Source of the DNA: a bacterium
Lineage (GTDB): Bacteria; Hinthialibacterota; Hinthialibacteria; OLB16
Assembly (NCBI GenBank): GCA_022072055.1
Contig: JAJVIK010000017.1
Location: 62,001 to 126,000 of the forward strand
Direction of reading: 5' to 3'
Length of the DNA: 64,000 nt
A model generated the notes under the pieces. The model ran no database searches. It had not been told where the DNA came from and saw only the letters and a list, made by a program, of their open reading frames with translations. Positions 4,284 to 53,506 of the stretch are shown in pieces (the first letter of the stretch is position 1; each line of letters starts with the position of its first letter). Both the position numbers and the translations under genes were made by a program.

Positions 4284-4370
4284 GTCCTAGGCGAAATTTT
4301 AGATTCCCGCCGGTGGTGAGAAAGGGCCGAAAAAGGCAGGGATTCCACCGTCTTCTCCCCATACCTCAAG

Positions 4371-4387
4371 ATGGCACAAGCTCTGCT
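4371..4387 (+). promoter_or_regulatory. Sigma-54 (RpoN) promoter of the PEP-CTERM gene
   Basis: The sequence ATGGCACAAGCTCTGCT has the defining GG (4373-4374) and GC (4385-4386) separated by exactly ten bases. The -24 half TGGCAC is perfect and the -12 half is CTGCT against consensus TTGCW. The transcript would start near 4398, leaving a leader of about 87 bases that includes a 6-bp inverted repeat (GGTCGA...TCGACC). PEP-CTERM genes in several other bacteria are controlled by the PrsK/PrsR two-component system and RpoN, which fits. The activator gene is not in this window. Confidence 0.65.
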
Positions 4388-4484
4388 CTATGTGGGGCCA
4401 AGGTCGACAGACACCTGAAAGCGCGGCGCGGGTCTCGACCACAACGGTTCCCTCGAGGGGCGAACCAACCGAAAGGAAGCGATC

Positions 4485-5291
4485 ATGAGGAATCTAGTTG
4501 CGGCCATCACAATCTTTGCTTCGATGCTGTTCGCGGTTGAGGGGAATGCCCTTTCCATCAGCGACAGTGAGCTGTCGGGATTGAGCTTCACTTACACGAA
4601 CGATTCGCTCACCGACACAGCCGGAAGCCGAACCTTCCAGGTTTTCGGAATGGGGACAGCGATTGCGAACGGGTTCCTTTATGTTGTCATCCAGACCAAC
4701 TTCCCGCAGTCTGGGGCGATGGGTAACGACTCGTACACCGGCACCACCCACTTTTCGCCTGGGGATCTCTATCTGAATGTCGGCGGGACTTTCCAGAACG
4801 GCGGGGGATCGGTCTACGGTGTCGGCACGACCAACCACGCCAATGTGGTGCAGCAGGCGTACATGGGCGAGACCTGGATCAATGTGGTCGCGGGGAGCTT
4901 GTACAGCAACGCCGGCTTCGCGACCGGGACTTACGAGCAGTATCAGCGCAATAACCCGAGTTTCGACCCGAATGACGGCGATGGGAACAATCGTTTGAAC
5001 TCTTATCCGACCCTGCTTCGTTCGGGGAACTTGGTGGCGGGCGATGTGTCGGGGCTGCGCTTCCGGAACAACACGACGGACGCCTGGGATTTCGACATCT
5101 TCTACAAGGTGTCCCTGGCGGCGTTGGGTCTGATCGGCGGGGAGTCCATCCAGGCCTTCTGGACGATGGAGTGCGGCAATGACGGGGTCCAGCAGATCAT
5201 TGGCAACCCGGTGATCCCCGAGCCGACCACGATTGGCCTCTTGCTCGCGGGAGTTTCGGCCCTCGCCGTGCGTCGCCGCCGCACCGCGTAA
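4485..5291 (+). CDS. PEP-CTERM sorting-domain secreted protein
   Basis: Exported protein of 268 residues. A signal peptide (hydrophobic stretch ending about VEGNA) is followed by a beta-rich, Gly/Asn/Thr-rich ectodomain. The C-terminus is a textbook exosortase signal: PEPTT at about 245-249, a hydrophobic helix, then RRRRTA. By the family model an exosortase cleaves this and the protein is held in or released from the outer surface, often glycosylated. The ectodomain resembles other PEP-CTERM structural proteins only in composition; I see no catalytic motif. It stands alone with its own leader, sigma-54-type promoter and terminator. The ribosome site is AAAGGAAG before ATG 4485. No exosortase gene is in the window. 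Confidence 0.9.
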   Translation: MRNLVAAITIFASMLFAVEGNALSISDSELSGLSFTYTNDSLTDTAGSRTFQVFGMGTAIANGFLYVVIQTNFPQSGAMGNDSYTGTTHFSPGDLYLNVGGTFQNGGGSVYGVGTTNHANVVQQAYMGETWINVVAGSLYSNAGFATGTYEQYQRNNPSFDPNDGDGNNRLNSYPTLLRSGNLVAGDVSGLRFRNNTTDAWDFDIFYKVSLAALGLIGGESIQAFWTMECGNDGVQQIIGNPVIPEPTTIGLLLAGVSALAVRRRRTA

Positions 5292-47087: not shown

Positions 47088-47543
47088 TTACAGGCTCGAG
47101 GAACGGTAGTCGCGAGACGGTCCCTCGATGTCGCTCAGATCATCCGGGTCCCAGCGATCCCAGGGACGCTCGAACAGACGCGCGGTTTCCTCCTTGAGCA
47201 GCGCCCACAGGGTGTAGATCCCGAGCAGGGTTCCCAGCGGGAAATGGATCAAGCTCAAGGCCCCGGCGACAATCCCAAGCACGCGCGCCCAGCGCTTGCG
47301 CTGCAGAAGCCCATACCCCGCGACGGCAAGGAACAGGGCCAGCAAGGCGGAATAGAGCACCAGGAAGAACCCGATCACCGAGAGCACGGTCCCGGCGCCG
47401 ATCCCCCCCAGCGGTCCCGCCACGAGGAAACCGGGGATGAAACCCACCCCCGCCAGCGCGAGAAGAAACAGCAGCGCGAAAAACCCCTTGTACAGGCCAT
47501 ACGCGAGGAACAGGACTCCAAGAAGCTTCACATGCGTCCCCAT
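47088..47543 (-). CDS. Membrane protein at the end of the psp operon
   Basis: Protein of 151 residues with four hydrophobic helices (about 6-30, 35-60, 60-82 and 92-116). The RKRWARVLGIVAGALSLIHFPLGTLLGIYTLWALL stretch is widespread in small bacterial membrane proteins of unknown function, often beside psp-like genes. It ends with a short acidic tail. A hairpin repeat lies in the 46 bp between it and pspC. Confidence 0.68.
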   Translation of the reverse strand: MGTHVKLLGVLFLAYGLYKGFFALLFLLALAGVGFIPGFLVAGPLGGIGAGTVLSVIGFFLVLYSALLALFLAVAGYGLLQRKRWARVLGIVAGALSLIHFPLGTLLGIYTLWALLKEETARLFERPWDRWDPDDLSDIEGPSRDYRSSSL

Positions 47544-47569: not shown

Positions 47570-47590
47570 GGACAGGCGGGACGCCTGTCC
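47570..47590. repeat. Short palindromic repeat in the psp operon
   Basis: Perfect 9-bp hairpin GGACAGGCG/CGCCTGTCC with a GGA loop. The pspC stop codon (TAG, 47592-47590) overlaps its end by one base. Palindromes of this type recur in many GC-rich genomes; I see only this one in the window. Confidence 0.6.
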
Positions 47591-47973
47591 TACTCGTGCA
47601 ACCGGCTCTCCCAGTCGTAATCGCGGGCGGTGACAATGTCCTCCATCCGGCGGATGCGCCGGTCGAGGCTGTCGAAGGTCCGCTTGAGGCGATGCAGGGC
47701 CATGCTGCGCGAGGAGACGTACGAGTTGTAAAACTCGCGGTCATCCTCGCTCTCGAACGGGATTACCGGTTCGGGTTTCATCACCAGCGCGCCGACAATG
47801 TAGGCGATCAGGAGCGGCCAGATTCCGGTCATGATGCAGGCGATCACCGTGATCACGCGCATCCAGAACACCGGGAAGTCGAGGTATTCCGCAATCCCCT
47901 TGCAGACCCCGAAGATGGCCCCATCCCGCGCGCGGTAAAGGGTCTTGGTTTCTTCATGGTAGTGACGGTTCAT
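47590..47973 (-). CDS. pspC: PspC-domain protein
   Basis: Inner-membrane protein of 127 residues of the phage-shock family. The conserved opening is TKTLYRARDGAIFGVCKGIAEYLDFPVFWMRVITVIACIM, followed by the second helix (WPLLIAYIVGALVM). The C-terminal part (about 85-125) is a charged coil with RLKRTFDSLDRRIRRMED. In E. coli PspC with PspB signals membrane stress and releases PspA from PspF. ATG 47973 has AAGGTG seven bases upstream; ATG 47979 is possible. The PspB-like genes lie upstream in the same operon. Confidence 0.9.
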   Translation of the reverse strand: MNRHYHEETKTLYRARDGAIFGVCKGIAEYLDFPVFWMRVITVIACIMTGIWPLLIAYIVGALVMKPEPVIPFESEDDREFYNSYVSSRSMALHRLKRTFDSLDRRIRRMEDIVTARDYDWESRLHE

Positions 47974-48013
47974 GGTCATTCACCTTTCCACTTTCTGTAT
48001 CACCCTCCCCCAG

Positions 48014-48065
48014 CCCCTCCCGCGTGCGGGAGGGGAGCCGTTTCCTCCCCCTTGAAAGGGGGAGG
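48014..48065. repeat. Pair of perfect hairpins between pspC and the upstream gene
   Basis: Two 10-bp perfect stems stand side by side: CCCCTCCCGC/GCGGGAGGGG (48014-48035) and CCTCCCCCTT/AAGGGGGAGG (48044-48065). The second belongs to a type of palindrome seen in many GC-rich bacterial genomes. In the operon they could reduce read-through into pspC. Confidence 0.6.
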
Positions 48066-48079
48066 TTAGGTGGGGGTCG

Positions 48080-48283
48080 TCAAAGCGCCTTCACCACAAT
48101 GATCCCACTTAACAAGCAAAGCGGGGCTCCGATCAGGATCAACGGCGGAACCAGACACATCAGCGCTCCGATCCCGAAGAATATCAATCCCAAGACCAGC
48201 GCCACGGTCCGCCCCAAGAGCTCGATCAGAAGCAGCGCGAGCTTAAATGGAAGCAACAAGATGGAACCCAGCACATGCAACAT
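48080..48283 (-). CDS. Tiny hydrophobic protein of the psp operon
   Basis: A 67-residue protein that is almost entirely hydrophobic, with two helices (about 5-35 and 38-62; IGALMCLVPPLILIGAPLCLL between). Its place between the PspB-like and PspC genes, and its 13-bp spacing from the former, argue that it is real. No family is recognised; PspG is a functional analogue to consider, without sequence proof. Confidence 0.6.
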   Translation of the reverse strand: MLHVLGSILLLPFKLALLLIELLGRTVALVLGLIFFGIGALMCLVPPLILIGAPLCLLSGIIVVKAL

Positions 48284-48296
48284 CGGCGGCGCCTCC

Positions 48297-48566
48297 TTAT
48301 TCCCGATCCCCGACTGTCCGATCCGCTTCGCGGACCCGATCCAGCAGCAGGGTCTCCAGGGCTTCGATTCGTTTCTCCATCCGGACGGCGATGCGGTTGA
48401 GCTCCTGGATGGTTTGCACATCCTCCTTGCTCGCGCCCGCTCCGCCGACCGAGCCGGAGCCATCCTTGCCCTTGAGAATCTTGAGGGCGGTGATCCCAAA
48501 GCCGCATAGAATCGCGACCAGGGGGATGCTGAACACCATGATGACCGCGAGTATGTCCACTCCCAT
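48297..48566 (-). CDS. PspB-like protein, fourth tandem copy
   Basis: Protein of 89 residues, closest in size to PspB. One membrane helix (about 4-28, ILAVIMVFSIPLVAILCGF) is followed by a Gly/Ser linker and the PspB-type coil VQTIQELNRIAVRMEKRIEALETLLLDR. The same coil ends the three genes upstream. It begins 14 bp after the third copy. By analogy it would partner PspC in stress sensing. Confidence 0.78.
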   Translation of the reverse strand: MGVDILAVIMVFSIPLVAILCGFGITALKILKGKDGSGSVGGAGASKEDVQTIQELNRIAVRMEKRIEALETLLLDRVREADRTVGDRE

Positions 48567-48580
48567 CGAGGCAGCTCCTT

Positions 48581-48973
48581 TCAGTTCGCCGAATCCGGTC
48601 GGGATTCCTCACCGCTCAGGTTTCGCGTGTTGTACATCAGCAGGGTCTCCAGCGACTCCACCCGGCGCTCCAGGCCGGACAACCCCTGGTGGACCTCCTG
48701 AAGAATCCGACTCTCCTCTTCCCCGCCCCGATCAGCTCGCTTGTCCCCCCTGATCAGGAGGAACAAGCCGATCAGGAAGGTTGATCCCAGCAAGAGCAGA
48801 GTCGGCGTCATCGCCAATCGTATCGTCCTGGATGCCCCCTGCGGGGTCCCTCCCTCCAGCATCGCTGTCGGCGCCGAAAGGTCCTGGTAGGCGACAAGTC
48901 TCACTCCCCAATACCCCAGCGGAAGCGCCAGGAAGAGGACAAATCCGATCAGAATGCAACCCAGTGCGCGCAT
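48581..48973 (-). CDS. PspB-like protein, third tandem copy
   Basis: Protein of 130 residues with two membrane helices (about 6-28 and 55-74) and a C-terminal coil ILQEVHQGLSGLERRVESLETLLM that aligns with the other copies. The outside loop between the helices is about 25 residues. It ends 14 bp before the next copy. Classic PspB has one helix, so this form is extended. Confidence 0.72.
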   Translation of the reverse strand: MRALGCILIGFVLFLALPLGYWGVRLVAYQDLSAPTAMLEGGTPQGASRTIRLAMTPTLLLLGSTFLIGLFLLIRGDKRADRGGEEESRILQEVHQGLSGLERRVESLETLLMYNTRNLSGEESRPDSAN

Positions 48974-48992
48974 AATCGCCTGCTCCTCGGTC

Positions 48993-49388
48993 CTAAAGTT
49001 TGTGGAGGAACGAATCCTCGCGAGACTTTTCCATCCAGAGGGTTTCCAGCGCCTCGATCCGCTCCTCCATGCGAGTCATCGAGCGGTGGATTTCCTGAAT
49101 AAGCTGGGTCTCCTCCAGATTCCGATCTTGGGAATCCTTCCCGGCACGGATTTCATAGGCCTTGAGGGCGCCTTTAACGAGCAAGCTGATCGTGATCACC
49201 GTGGCCACGCAGACAATGGCCACTGTATCCGCGTCGATTCCGGGACCGGTGGAGAGACCTTGAACCAGGTCCCCGCCTTGCAGACGGGCGCGGGCGAGGG
49301 AGGGCAGGAAGATCGCGACCCCGACCAACCCGATCTGGATCAACAGGATGACCACCACCACGCCAACTAGGATTCCGACGAGCCTCAT
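48993..49388 (-). CDS. PspB-like protein, second tandem copy
   Basis: Protein of 131 residues. ATG 49388 is chosen to start at the first helix (VGILVGVVVVILLIQIGLVG); an in-frame start at 49403 would overlap the previous gene. A second helix is at about 60-80 and the PspB coil is TQLIQEIHRSMTRMEERIEALETLW. It ends 19 bp before the third copy. Confidence 0.73.
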   Translation of the reverse strand: MRLVGILVGVVVVILLIQIGLVGVAIFLPSLARARLQGGDLVQGLSTGPGIDADTVAIVCVATVITISLLVKGALKAYEIRAGKDSQDRNLEETQLIQEIHRSMTRMEERIEALETLWMEKSREDSFLHKL

Positions 49389-49399
49389 GGACTTCCTCC

Positions 49400-49732
49400 T
49401 CACGGTTCTTCGTAGGTCGAGGCGCGGTCCAGAAGAATGGTCTCGAGCGTCTCGATCCGCCGTTCCATCCCGGCGAGACTGTTGTGAATCTCCTGGATAA
49501 GCCGGGTCTCATCCCGGCTCCAATCCTCGCCCCGCTTGCGCACGGGTCGCCCGGAGGCGCCCCGCAGGAGGGCGTAAAGCCCCCAACACACCACCCCCAG
49601 CACCGCCACCGGCGCGAGCACCACCAGGAGCACCACCGCAAGGGCGGTGAGCAGTCCGACCCCCGCCAGCACAATCGGCAGGGCGAGCATGACCGCCGCC
49701 GCCAACAAGATCAGCTTGAGGATCAACCGCAT
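49400..49732 (-). CDS. PspB-like protein, first tandem copy
   Basis: Protein of 110 residues: a long hydrophobic region (about 3-58) that may cross twice, a basic stretch, then the coil TRLIQEIHNSLAGMERRIETLETILL. It starts 103 bp after pspA and ends 11 bp before the second copy. ATG 49732 begins the hydrophobic segment; upstream in-frame codons run into low-complexity Arg-rich shadow. Confidence 0.72.
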   Translation of the reverse strand: MRLILKLILLAAAVMLALPIVLAGVGLLTALAVVLLVVLAPVAVLGVVCWGLYALLRGASGRPVRKRGEDWSRDETRLIQEIHNSLAGMERRIETLETILLDRASTYEEP

Positions 49733-49835: not shown

Positions 49836-50519
49836 CTATGTCGTTTGCGAAGTTCCGGCCTTCTGGCGCACGCTGTCCTTAAGGGCAACCAGCTCCTTCT
49901 CGATCTCCTCGTCCTCCTGGAGCTTGGCGAATTCATCCTCAAGGGTCGGCTTGCGGGCGAAGTTCACCAGGTCGGCCTCGGCCTCCATGCGCTCGATTCG
50001 GTTCTCGAACTTCTCGAAGCGCACAAAGGCATCCGAGGTGTCCACCTTGCGGATCCGCTCCTGGGCCTCCTTCTTGCTGCGGGCGCGAATGTGGCGCTGG
50101 ACCAGGAGTCGCTGACGCTCGCGAGCCGAGGAGAGCTTATCCTCCAGCTGGCGCATGTCTTCCTGGTACTGCTCCACGATTTGGTCGCAGTGACGCATCT
50201 CCTCCTCCAGGGAGGCCGCGCGGTCGCGGTAGCGCTTCTTCTCGTGAAGCGCCTCGCGCGCCAACTCGTCGCGCCCCTTGGCCACCGCGAGCTGGGCTTT
50301 CTCCTCCCAACGGGCCGCGCGGGTCTTGCACTCATCCAGCTGACGCTGGGTTTTCTTCCGGGCCGCCATCGCCCCGGCGCAGGAGGCGCGGACCTCGACC
50401 AGCGTGTCCTCCATCTCCTGGATCATCAGACGAACCATTTTCTCGGGGTCCTCGGCCTTGTCCAACATCGCGTTGATGTTGGAGCTGATGATGTCTCGCA
50501 CTCGTGTGAAGATTCCCAT
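49836..50519 (-). CDS. pspA: Phage shock protein A (PspA/IM30 family)
   Basis: Peripheral membrane protein of 227 residues starting at ATG 50519 behind AAGGAGG. The family start GIFTRVRDIISSNINAMLDKAEDPEKMVRLMIQEMEDTLVEVR is unmistakable, followed by a long coiled coil (to about 190). PspA is an ESCRT-III-like protein that binds damaged membranes and restrains PspF. The C-terminal 35 residues hold the last helix. It is the second gene of the operon. Confidence 0.95.
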   Translation of the reverse strand: MGIFTRVRDIISSNINAMLDKAEDPEKMVRLMIQEMEDTLVEVRASCAGAMAARKKTQRQLDECKTRAARWEEKAQLAVAKGRDELAREALHEKKRYRDRAASLEEEMRHCDQIVEQYQEDMRQLEDKLSSARERQRLLVQRHIRARSKKEAQERIRKVDTSDAFVRFEKFENRIERMEAEADLVNFARKPTLEDEFAKLQEDEEIEKELVALKDSVRQKAGTSQTT

Positions 50520-50574: not shown

Positions 50575-50865
50575 TCAGTTCGGTTGATACGGGCGAATCG
50601 GCGAATAAACCGGGGTGATTGCGAGACGCTCCAGCGCGGCATAGAGACGGAGGAAAACCTCGCGCTCCAGCACCAACACCTCGGATTCCCGCTCCTTGCT
50701 CTTTGGGACCGCTCCCTCACGGTCGCGGTTCGGATGCTCGCGGTTCTGCTTGGCGGAGCTCGGGAAGGCCAAGGCGCTGATCGGACGGCTCAGGGTCACT
50801 TCGCTCGCGCCCCCATCCCGCAGGATGCCCCACTCCCCACTCGATGCATTCAGCCAGTACCTCAT
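50575..50865 (-). CDS. Unknown first gene of the psp operon
   Basis: Protein of 96 residues. ATG 50865 has an AGAGG ribosome site about ten bases upstream; ATG 50874 sits right on it. It has no signal, membrane helix or known motif. The N-terminal part has short strands (WGILRDGGASEVTLSRPI) and the C-terminal part a helix with EREVFLRLYAALERL. It occupies the first place of the operon, 55 bp before pspA, so a role in Psp control is possible, but the coding status is less sure than that of its neighbours. Confidence 0.5.
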   Translation of the reverse strand: MRYWLNASSGEWGILRDGGASEVTLSRPISALAFPSSAKQNREHPNRDREGAVPKSKERESEVLVLEREVFLRLYAALERLAITPVYSPIRPYQPN

Positions 50866-50932
50866 CGGACCCATCCTCTCTCTCTTTCAGGATCCGGGAG
50901 ATGCGCCCCGATCCCTCATCTGCCTGGGTCCT

Positions 50933-50951
50933 AAAACAGGAACAATGCCAG
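50933..50951 (-). promoter_or_regulatory. Candidate sigma-54 promoter of the psp operon
   Basis: On the minus strand CTGGCATTGTTCCTGTTTT has a good -24 half (TGGCAT) and, ten bases after GG, GT in place of GC at -12. Transcription would begin near 50921. PspF is a sigma-54 activator encoded divergently, so such a site is expected here; this is the best one I find by eye. Confidence 0.45.
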
Positions 50952-51035: not shown

Positions 51036-52097
51036 ATGAGAGAGATCACGCCACGTGGTGGTGGAGAACACCATCTTTTCCTTCCCGAGGCGCTGGGAGA
51101 ATCCGAGGCCTTCCTGGAGTTTCAGGAGCGCTTGTCGCGGGTGGCCCGTGTGGAGCGTCCGGTGCTCTTGATCGGTGAGAGAGGGACGGGGAAGGAACTC
51201 GCCGCGGCGCGTTTGCACGCCCTCTCGGCGCGCTGGCAGGGCCCGATGGTGGAGCTCAACTGCGCCGCGCTTTCGCCCACTCTGATCGAGTCCGAGCTCT
51301 TCGGGCATGAGGAGGGAGCTTTCACCGGCGCTTCGCGGCGACGTCAGGGGCGCTTCGAGATGGCGCATCAGGGAACCCTGTTCCTGGATGAGATCGGAAA
51401 CATCCCGATGGAGGCGCAGGAGAAGATTCTGCGCGTGGTGGAGTATGGTCGTTTCGAGCGAGTGGGCGGAACCCGCCAGGTGCAAGTGGATGTTCGCATC
51501 CTCGGGGCCACGAACGTGGATCTCACGCGCCTGTGCGAGGAGGGTCGCTTCAAGAGGGATCTTCTGGATCGTCTGTCGTTCGAGGTTCTGACCCTGCCCC
51601 CGTTGCGAGAGCGGGGAGGCGACATTCTTCTGCTCGCCGCGCACTTCGCAAACCGGATGGCGTTTGAGCTCGGGAGGAGCGAGATGCCCACGTTCGCTGC
51701 GAGCGCGCAACGCGCGTTGATGACTTACTCATGGCCGGGCAATGTGCGCGAGCTCAAGAACGTGGCCGAGCGCGCGGTGTATCGCTCGGACTCCAACGTG
51801 ATTGGAGAGATTGTGTTCAATCCCTTCGCGACCCTTGAGGAGCGTCCCTTGCCGGATGCGCGCGTGCAGGTTTCGGAGGAGCCTGTGGATAAGCGCGCGC
51901 GCAAACCGATTCGGTTTGAGGAGGCGTTGATGGAGTTGGAGATGGAGTTGCTGCAAAGGGCCCTTGCCGAAACTGGACAGAATCAGCGCAAGGCGGCGGA
52001 GGCGCTGGGGTTGTCGTATCACCAGTTCCGCTGGGTGTATCGTCGCCACAGGAAGGCCCTGGAATCGGCGCTAACCCTTGAAGAATCCAAGACTTAG
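51036..52097 (+). CDS. pspF: PspF-like sigma-54 transcription activator
   Basis: AAA+ enhancer-binding protein of 353 residues. The order and motifs match E. coli PspF: LGESEAFLEFQERLSRVA, Walker A GERGTGKE, the sigma-54-contact loop GAFTGA, Walker B GTLFLDEIGN, PLRERGGDILLLA, and SWPGNVRELKNVAERAVYR. There is no N-terminal sensory domain, as in PspF, so PspA can act as the direct inhibitor. The C-terminal helix-turn-helix is NQRKAAEALGLSYHQFRWVYRRH. It is transcribed away from the psp operon. Confidence 0.93.
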   Translation: MREITPRGGGEHHLFLPEALGESEAFLEFQERLSRVARVERPVLLIGERGTGKELAAARLHALSARWQGPMVELNCAALSPTLIESELFGHEEGAFTGASRRRQGRFEMAHQGTLFLDEIGNIPMEAQEKILRVVEYGRFERVGGTRQVQVDVRILGATNVDLTRLCEEGRFKRDLLDRLSFEVLTLPPLRERGGDILLLAAHFANRMAFELGRSEMPTFAASAQRALMTYSWPGNVRELKNVAERAVYRSDSNVIGEIVFNPFATLEERPLPDARVQVSEEPVDKRARKPIRFEEALMELEMELLQRALAETGQNQRKAAEALGLSYHQFRWVYRRHRKALESALTLEESKT

Positions 52098-52250: not shown

Positions 52251-52319
52251 CCCTGCGTGCTCACTGAAGCGGAGGGATGGTCCCGCGCAGCGGGCTTGAA
52301 AATTCAATAGGAGGATTTG

Positions 52320-52817
52320 ATGAGCATGAAACGGGTAGTTGTGGGTCTTGTTGTGGTTCTTGCTTTGGGTGTCGTTGCGACCCCGGGTCACGCGTTCCTG
52401 TTTGGGAACTGCTGCTGCAATACTTCGTGCTGCGCGGTTGCGCCGTATGAGGTGAAAGTGACCTATACTCCGATCGAGCCGCAGCCGGGCGAGTGCACTT
52501 ACTGCACTTGCTTGCCGTATGGCTGCCCCGATGGCGCTCCGTGCGTCAGCGGTTGTCCGCCGTGTGGTCCTGGGTGTGGCGTTGGTGTTGGTTGCGCCGC
52601 CCCCGCGGCTTGCGGCCCCTGTGGCATCAACCTGTGCGGGATTCTTAGCACCCCGTGCTGCGTTGTCGGCCCCGTTGTGAGTGGCGCTTGCGGTCTGGTT
52701 GGCGGCGTCCTCGATTGCGCCTGTGGTATCGTTTCGGGCGTTCTCGGCTGCCTCGGCTGCTGCAACCCCTGTGGCGCCGGCTGCGGCGCTCCGGCGGGCG
52801 CGGCGATGGCCCAGTAA
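52320..52817 (+). CDS. Secreted cysteine-rich protein, copy 1
   Basis: Protein of 165 residues with a signal peptide (hydrophobic helix, ending ATPGHA). The mature part opens FLFGNCCCNTSCCAVAPYEVKVTYTPIEPQPGECTYCTC and has 27 cysteines. A central Gly/Pro/Cys-rich region (about 80-105) leads to a glycine-zipper-like segment with GLVGGVLDCACGIVSGVLGCLGCC, then ends AMAQ. I know no family with this layout. Cys spacing is not that of ferredoxins. It may form a disulfide-linked surface or envelope structure; that is inference. Coding is certain: two promoters, AGGAGG, and a strong terminator frame it, and copy 2 shares conserved sections. Confidence 0.85.
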   Translation: MSMKRVVVGLVVVLALGVVATPGHAFLFGNCCCNTSCCAVAPYEVKVTYTPIEPQPGECTYCTCLPYGCPDGAPCVSGCPPCGPGCGVGVGCAAPAACGPCGINLCGILSTPCCVVGPVVSGACGLVGGVLDCACGIVSGVLGCLGCCNPCGAGCGAPAGAAMAQ

Positions 52818-53008: not shown

Positions 53009-53506
53009 ATGAAACGGGTCGTTCTGGTAGTTCTTGGCGTTCTTGCTTTGGGTCTGATCGCGCCTCCCGGGCATGCGTTTCTGTTCGGGAACTGTTGCTG
53101 TAACACCTCGTGTTGCGCGGTGGCGCCTTATGAAGTCAAGGTGACTTACACCCCGATTGAGCCGCAGCCGGGCGAGTGCACTTACTGCACTTGTCTGCCG
53201 TACGGTTGTCCGGATGGGGCCCCTGTCTGCCCGCCCTGCGGGCCGGTGGGTTGTGGTCCCTGCGGAACCGCGGTCGGCGCCGGTTGTGGCGCGCCTTGCG
53301 GCGGCGGGATTTGCGGTCTGGCCTGCAACCCCTGCTGCTTTGTGACCCCGATTGTATCGGGCGCTCTCGGCATGGTCGGCGGGGTTCTGGACTGCGCTTG
53401 CGGCATGGTTGCCGGGGTTCTTTCCTGCCTGGGGTGCTGCACCCCCTGCTGCGCGCCCTCGCCGTGCTGTGGCGGCATGGGCGGTGGCGTGGCGATGGCT
53501 CAGTAA
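53009..53506 (+). CDS. Secreted cysteine-rich protein, copy 2
   Basis: Protein of 165 residues, a tandem paralogue of the preceding gene, with 28 cysteines. The signal peptide ends APPGHA. The first 45 mature residues are almost identical to copy 1 (FLFGNCCCNTSCC, EVKVTYTPIEPQPGECTYC, LPYGCPDGAP). The middle differs and is Gly/Cys/Pro-rich, and the zipper GMVGGVLDCACGMVAGVLSCLGCC is kept, ending in two CC pairs and AMAQ. AAGGAG precedes ATG 53009. No promoter is clear in the 124 bp between the terminator and this gene. Confidence 0.85.
   Translation: MKRVVLVVLGVLALGLIAPPGHAFLFGNCCCNTSCCAVAPYEVKVTYTPIEPQPGECTYCTCLPYGCPDGAPVCPPCGPVGCGPCGTAVGAGCGAPCGGGICGLACNPCCFVTPIVSGALGMVGGVLDCACGMVAGVLSCLGCCTPCCAPSPCCGGMGGGVAMAQ

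Follow-up and report, generated by a model that had tools for sequence, protein, structure and literature searches.

The window, by which we mean the whole 64,000-nucleotide stretch of a Hinthialibacterota genome analysed here, carries a phage-shock (psp) operon in which four consecutive genes, PspB1 to PspB4, are, judging from their sequences, divergent homologues of PspB that have a last transmembrane (TM) helix and a coil in common and differ in their N-terminal additions, or heads (Table 1). We consider it about an even bet (probability roughly 0.5) that these proteins, with their different heads, join PspC in a mixed membrane complex that takes different inputs and delivers its output through PspC, PspA and PspF. 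Of this reading, the homology, the common unit, the different heads, the operon context and the retention in relatives can each be read from sequence comparison.

On the minus strand the gene order is pspA, PspB1–PspB4, orf5, pspC and orf7, with pspF divergent on the plus strand. PspF, PspA and PspC exceed their NCBIfam equivalog cut-offs in the window, and the PspB-like genes sit in the pspA–pspC interval, next to pspF. The arrangement is like that of the enterobacterial pspABC(DE)/pspF system (E. coli, Yersinia), in which pspF is likewise divergent from pspA, the pspB slot lies between pspA and pspC, and the PspB protein has the same TM and coil unit; it is unlike that system in having four pspB-like genes versus one, in the extra N-terminal helices or loops of three of the PspBs, and in a 67-aa membrane gene before pspC. 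The gaps between PspB1/2, PspB2/3, PspB3/4 and PspB4/orf5 (-4, 19, 14 and 13 bp) are short, as in an operon, and about 100 bp lie ahead of PspB1 and again ahead of pspC. Hairpin-like repeats at 48005–48075 (orf5/pspC gap) and 47571–47594 (pspC/orf7) are possibly mobile intergenic repeats or transcription dampers.

Table 1 Features of the psp locus in the window (positions of the window, strand, and description)
Feature	Position	Strand	Description
pspF	51036..52097	+	sigma-54 enhancer-binding activator; TIGR02974 462.5 bits (cut-off 443.55)
candidate sigma-54 promoter	50935..50950	-	TGGCATTGTTCCTGTT; -24/-12 type, upstream of pspA
pspA	49836..50519	-	227 aa; TIGR02977 256.8 bits (cut-off 242.95)
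PspB1	49400..49732	-	110 aa; hydrophobic hairpin (2 TM) followed by coil; TIGR02976 E 9e-8
PspB2	48993..49403	-	136 aa; TM, loop, TM, coil; TIGR02976 E 1.8e-8
PspB3	48581..48973	-	130 aa; TM, loop, TM, coil; TIGR02976 E 2.8e-4
PspB4	48297..48566	-	89 aa; one TM and coil, the canonical PspB layout; TIGR02976 E 9.8e-10
orf5	48080..48283	-	67 aa; three hydrophobic stretches; between last pspB and pspC
pspC	47590..47979	-	129 aa; own C-terminal coil; TIGR02978 117.5 bits (cut-off 104)
orf7	47088..47543	-	151 aa; membrane protein; weak DUF2127 likeness (PF09900 E 8e-4, under cut-off)

The start of pspF at 51036 is inferred, being read from the sequence (the open reading frame, or ORF, itself opens at 50844), and that of pspA was chosen by a ribosome-site-like AGGAGG together with the alignment. 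In the 700-bp region ahead of the pspA ORF, no site scores higher than the candidate promoter (10.2 of 13.9); its -12 element is off consensus, and a similar TGGCAy...CTGTT is found in G001, a genome of the same family. A sigma-54 pattern scan of the window, with one mismatch allowed, returned no more sites than shuffled sequence, and the promoter site, approximate in the window, is near consensus in L045, L062, L069 and L118. Directly upstream of pspA there is a small ORF (50575–50874, minus strand) that by eye resembles one at the equivalent place in G002 (L030:4325–4636), and orf7 has a gene similar by eye at the equivalent place in G001 (L029:4003–4407).

The initial annotation had described four genes with a PspB-like coil downstream of pspA and a differing number of helices; its coordinates were right, and both descriptions were borne out, as was the link with pspA, pspC and pspF. 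An independent PspB profile of 18 rows from 17 loci (L102–L118; 16 gammaproteobacterial and Desulfomicrobium L103), from which the window's own group was absent, matched all four among the 523 ORFs of the window, with E-values of 1.2e-9, 1.6e-9, 1.5e-7 and 1.5e-6, the last being that of PspB3; the next ORF stood at 0.68 and the best value after shuffling the ORF set ten times was 0.38, with the small circularity that the rows had been aligned via a profile including the window's genes. A 145-row profile without the window's group gave E-values of 1.3e-19 to 4.2e-16 for the four genes, 0.45 for the next ORF and 0.024 at best for shuffled ORFs. Alignment with PspBs from several phyla, Erwinia included, showed that the coil residues R, L and E are invariant in 33 of 33 proteins (alignment A2), and a TM helix followed by a coil of the form M..R[IV]..LE[TS] was present in PspB1–4 in the alignment and with the independent profile alike. 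An unguided search for DNA repeats also picked out the coil: its sequence forms a 38-nt direct repeat that occurs four times, at spacings of 293, 397 and 398 nt.

Curated models rank the four genes lower. TIGR02976 scores PspB1–4 at 32.3, 34.5, 21.1 and 38.6 bits (cut-off 51.7) and PF06667 at 23.8, 20.3, 15.8 and 23.2 bits (cut-off 25.6); none reaches either cut-off, and we therefore term them divergent PspB homologues. Across the whole 5.86 Mb genome, TIGR02976 gave E < 0.01 only for PspB1–4, with two other proteins at 0.96. Its cut-off is reached by 0 of 61 genomes (own and relatives), indicating that the complexity of psp operons outside Proteobacteria exceeds what curated PspB models show. 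For PspB4 and PspC, sequence searches against solved structures gave nothing useful.

Judging from hydropathy, PspB1 to PspB4 have 2, 2, 2 and 1 transmembrane stretches, respectively: PspB1 has a double hairpin of hydrophobic sequence, two stretches with a loop of about 25–35 residues between them are present in PspB2 and PspB3, and PspB4 has one. Only PspB4 (89 aa, 1 TM) has the PspB form of one TM in about 75 aa, PspB1–3 being 110–136 aa with 2 TM. An AlphaFold2 model of PspB2 (25 sequences, mean pLDDT 84.6, pTM 0.45) consists of a helix (2–42), a low-confidence loop and a long helix (58–135) in which the coil has a pLDDT of about 98. In terms of topology, the coil would lie inside and the loops outside. 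Head types recur in two phyla: hairpin heads are seen on the first PspB, and heads of two helices joined by a loop are seen as well. A hairpin-head PspB directly follows pspA in L040 and L032 and is the first PspB in L138 and L140 (Hydrogenedentota).

Whether four pspB genes are unusual depends on the comparison. We surveyed 80 named loci, counting pspB from pspA to the first pspC; groups follow the record names, except that L040 and L051, named Omnitrophota, were placed by genome kinship. A single pspB was found in all 16 gammaproteobacterial intervals and in all 27 deltaproteobacterial-type intervals reaching pspC (2 others stop short of it), in agreement with the expectation that known operons carry one. 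Verrucomicrobiota loci had one pspB in 9/11 and two in 2/11 (1 other stops short of pspC), and Spirochaetes loci one in 2/4 and none in 2/4. Two or three were present in 4/6 Hydrogenedentota loci and none in 2/6, where pspC comes first; 4 other loci of this phylum stop short of pspC, one of them showing three pspB. One Sumerlaeota locus had three, both Hinthialibacterota loci reaching pspC had two (2/2), Planctomycetota/Kuenenia-labelled loci had two in 1/4 and none in 3/4, and one unlabelled locus had none. In L035, whose operon has one PspB, we observed a PspC with two tandem PspC domains (4312–4941, minus strand).

Genome counts extend this picture. Full-length PspA occurs in 5 of the 14 same-class genomes, and all 5 have at least two pspB-like genes. 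At E ≤ 0.01, PspB matches in the class number 4 in G000, 3 in G002 (two in the cluster) and 2 each in G001, G005 and G004 (the last at a contig edge), with 1 weak match in G006. PspA exceeds its cut-off in the same five genomes (G000, G001, G002, G004 and G005) and not in G006, so that all psp operons in the class (5/5) have more than one pspB; the remaining 9 of the 14 genomes have neither PspA over the cut-off nor a strong PspB match. Two extra PspB-like genes of G005 (99 aa and 151 aa) were assigned by their position in the slot and their layout; the 99-aa gene is unlisted by the PspB profile, yet matches the hairpin PspB of L140 at 6e-12, and the 151-aa gene has an E-value of 2.

Beyond the class, where phylum-wide counts are matches per genome and not strictly per operon, 45 of 68 Hydrogenedentota genomes match PspB, with at least two matches in 33/45, at least three in 20, four in 4 and five in 1; the corresponding figures for Sumerlaeota are 15 of 40 genomes and at least two in 9/15, including one genome (G314) whose two matches, one weak, are on different contigs and another (G284) with 1 of 5 matches on another contig. 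PspB is matched in 5 of 194 genomes of the Verrucomicrobiota sample, each once, and, within the phylum to which G075 (labelled Desulfobacteraceae) belongs, in 7 of 148 genomes, one of them with two matches. The suggestion that the same expansion exists in related phyla was therefore upheld, the cluster being present in the window's own class (5/5), in Hydrogenedentota (33/45) and in Sumerlaeota (9/15). The claim that a multi-pspB operon is unusual stands against the well-studied operons, which have a single pspB, but not against the phylogenetic neighbourhood, where the window is not exceptional because multi-pspB is the rule in the class and in Hydrogenedentota and is common in Sumerlaeota. 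What emerges appears to be an ancient expansion of a membrane-damage alarm that has been retained.

Operons like that of the window, with 2–6 pspB-like genes after pspA and a mixture of one- and two-helix heads, some hairpin-first, are found in Hydrogenedentota and Sumerlaeota (L045, L050, L062, L069, L081 and L138–L159). Unlike in the window, the pspB-like genes of these operons often alternate with a second pspC, and no clear orf5 separates their last pspB from pspC. In the maps of these operons, made with a PspC N-terminal profile, several 'C' rows are other-frame ORFs running into the real pspC. L144, L145, L146, L149 and L152 (Hydrogenedentota), for example, read pspA-pspB(s)-pspC-pspB-pspC, that is, with a second PspB-PspC pair per operon. 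The largest array seen, on a contig of the five-match Hydrogenedentota genome (L141, 1–2555), has six consecutive PspB-like ORFs before pspC.

Work on E. coli bears on how several PspBs might act together. In the accessible parts of these studies, PspB self-associates and binds PspC through its membrane part (PMC3068692), PspA-PspC and PspB-PspC contacts were detected and a PspB-PspA contact was not (PMC3068692, PMC2764110), and PspBC relieve the inhibition of PspF by PspA (PMC3068692). The connection that the initial annotation implied, between the PspB coil and PspA, runs counter to this lack of direct PspA binding; it is not the known route, because PspB binds PspC via the membrane and L10, L15 and L18, the 'leucine zipper' residues that were mutated, lie outside the C-terminal coil (PMC3068692, PMC2764110). 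On the basis of the E. coli and Yersinia PspBC findings, as far as these sources describe them, we therefore propose mixed PspB-PspC complexes. PspB1–4 would be produced from one sigma-54/PspF-controlled operon, and several PspBs would assemble with the single PspC in the membrane; the common TM-coil would connect to PspC, the heads would differ in what they meet and hence respond to different membrane disturbances, and PspC would remove PspA from PspF, switching the operon on. Detection of different faults by the heads is plausible, and we infer the mixed complex, the different inputs and the output through PspC. In favour of this explanation, the 18-row profile matches no window ORF beyond PspB1–4; against it, the four proteins fall under the curated cut-offs, a tree of 57 columns does not reject their origin from one another, and G001 and G002 have just two copies in the cluster.

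Secretins are a known input of PspBC, and we counted them by PF00263 in the 14 class genomes and the 68 Hydrogenedentota genomes. The idea of one PspB head per secretin is unsupported, as pspB number does not follow secretin number: in Hydrogenedentota the correlation had a rho of 0.19 (p 0.20) among the 45 genomes with pspB and of 0.24 (p 0.049) among all 68, and secretin number tracks genome size (rho 0.45). In the class, genomes with a psp operon have 4, 4, 5, 7 and 4 secretins versus 4–9 in those without, that is, more, not fewer, without the operon.

This misfit with one sensor per secretin sits well with what is the main rival, a structural-effector reading. On this view each PspB would hold a set place in a hetero-oligomer whose task is to plug or brace the membrane, and the heads would differ by position, not by signal. 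The six consecutive genes of L141 would also suit it, as would the observation, in the accessible text of a Yersinia study, that PspBC alone prevent the toxicity of mislocalised secretins, apart from their regulatory role (PMC5596341). Copy number, which in a single phylum can be anything between one and six, is a poor fit to fixed positions in a particle. We regard this explanation as unlikely, though a serious one.

The descent of the genes bears on another alternative, namely that these are tandem copies with little functional difference, retained or lost at random through dosage or drift. Copy number does differ between genera, and some tandem copies are recent (e.g., L155_4569 and L155_4905, SH-aLRT 98). 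The window copies, by contrast, differ in head layout, and the best match of each lies in another genome and not in a sister copy, in a search without composition correction whose scores are inflated for hydrophobic heads. PspB4 groups with the first PspB of G001 (SH-aLRT 96). Both PspB trees (146 rows × 56 columns, and a hand-picked subset of 44 rows × 57 columns) are mostly unresolved, and in the 44-row tree a single clade of the four window genes is not rejected (p-AU 0.485, 0.81 log units). The case for old paralogy is thus built on best matches and head layout and not on the tree. Whole-operon lateral transfer is possible.

Selection, too, argues against drift. Between G118 and G119, three paralogues have pN of 0.21–0.29 versus pS of 0.59–0.74, and each is under purifying selection overall. 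The coil changes least in all three, with identities of 77, 87 and 100% in the coil and 64, 43 and 42% in the head; the contrast is weaker in window pairs (PspB4/G001, coil 60% and head 49%; PspB1/G002, 39% and 34%). With heads of one type also recurring in two phyla, we hold dosage or drift to be quite improbable. Hardly credible is the idea that these are small membrane proteins unrelated to PspB whose coiled coils resemble its coil by chance, an idea for which the cut-offs missed by all four could be cited, given the independent-profile E-values of 1e-9 to 1e-6 (next ORF 0.68, shuffled best 0.38), the invariant R..LE positions and the PspB-like genes in the matching operon slot of relatives.

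The inputs of PspB and PspC are a long-standing question, and most work has dealt with a single PspB. Naturally occurring PspBs that combine one connector with various heads would offer a way in, as head swaps could separate the sensing from the signalling part. We tentatively extend the mixed-complex reading, at something short of even odds, to a modular phage-shock system with multiple inputs, retained in Hinthialibacterota, Hydrogenedentota and Sumerlaeota. In it, 2–6 PspBs with a common TM-coil connector and exchangeable membrane heads, each tuned to a different membrane fault, would feed one PspC-PspA-PspF switch.

PspB has been recorded in 26% of phyla, according to the accessible part of Popp et al. 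2022 (PMC9239133). Operons with more than one PspB domain, like that of the window, are mentioned in Ravi et al. 2024 (PMC11237479), who note 'PspB duplicates' or a PspC-PspB fusion in psp operons (e.g., AOL22920.1); in the accessible text of that paper the duplicates occupy one clause, without four- to six-copy arrays, head diversity or a phylum-wide distribution. Our literature search, which covered a minority of subscription papers and supplements, found no report of multi-pspB arrays like these.

Between the last pspB and pspC, orf5 is conserved in 4/4 of the group's loci that reach pspC (E ≤ 2.6e-31, with a profile seeded from those same four genes). It has no Pfam or NCBIfam match, and weak look-alikes (E 0.002–0.3) follow pspC in several Hydrogenedentota; orf5 is possibly a new Psp component. 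Downstream of pspF, two adjacent and very similar cysteine-rich genes (52317–52817 and 53009–53506, plus strand) have signal-peptide-like starts and the stretch FLFGNCCCNTSCC in common.
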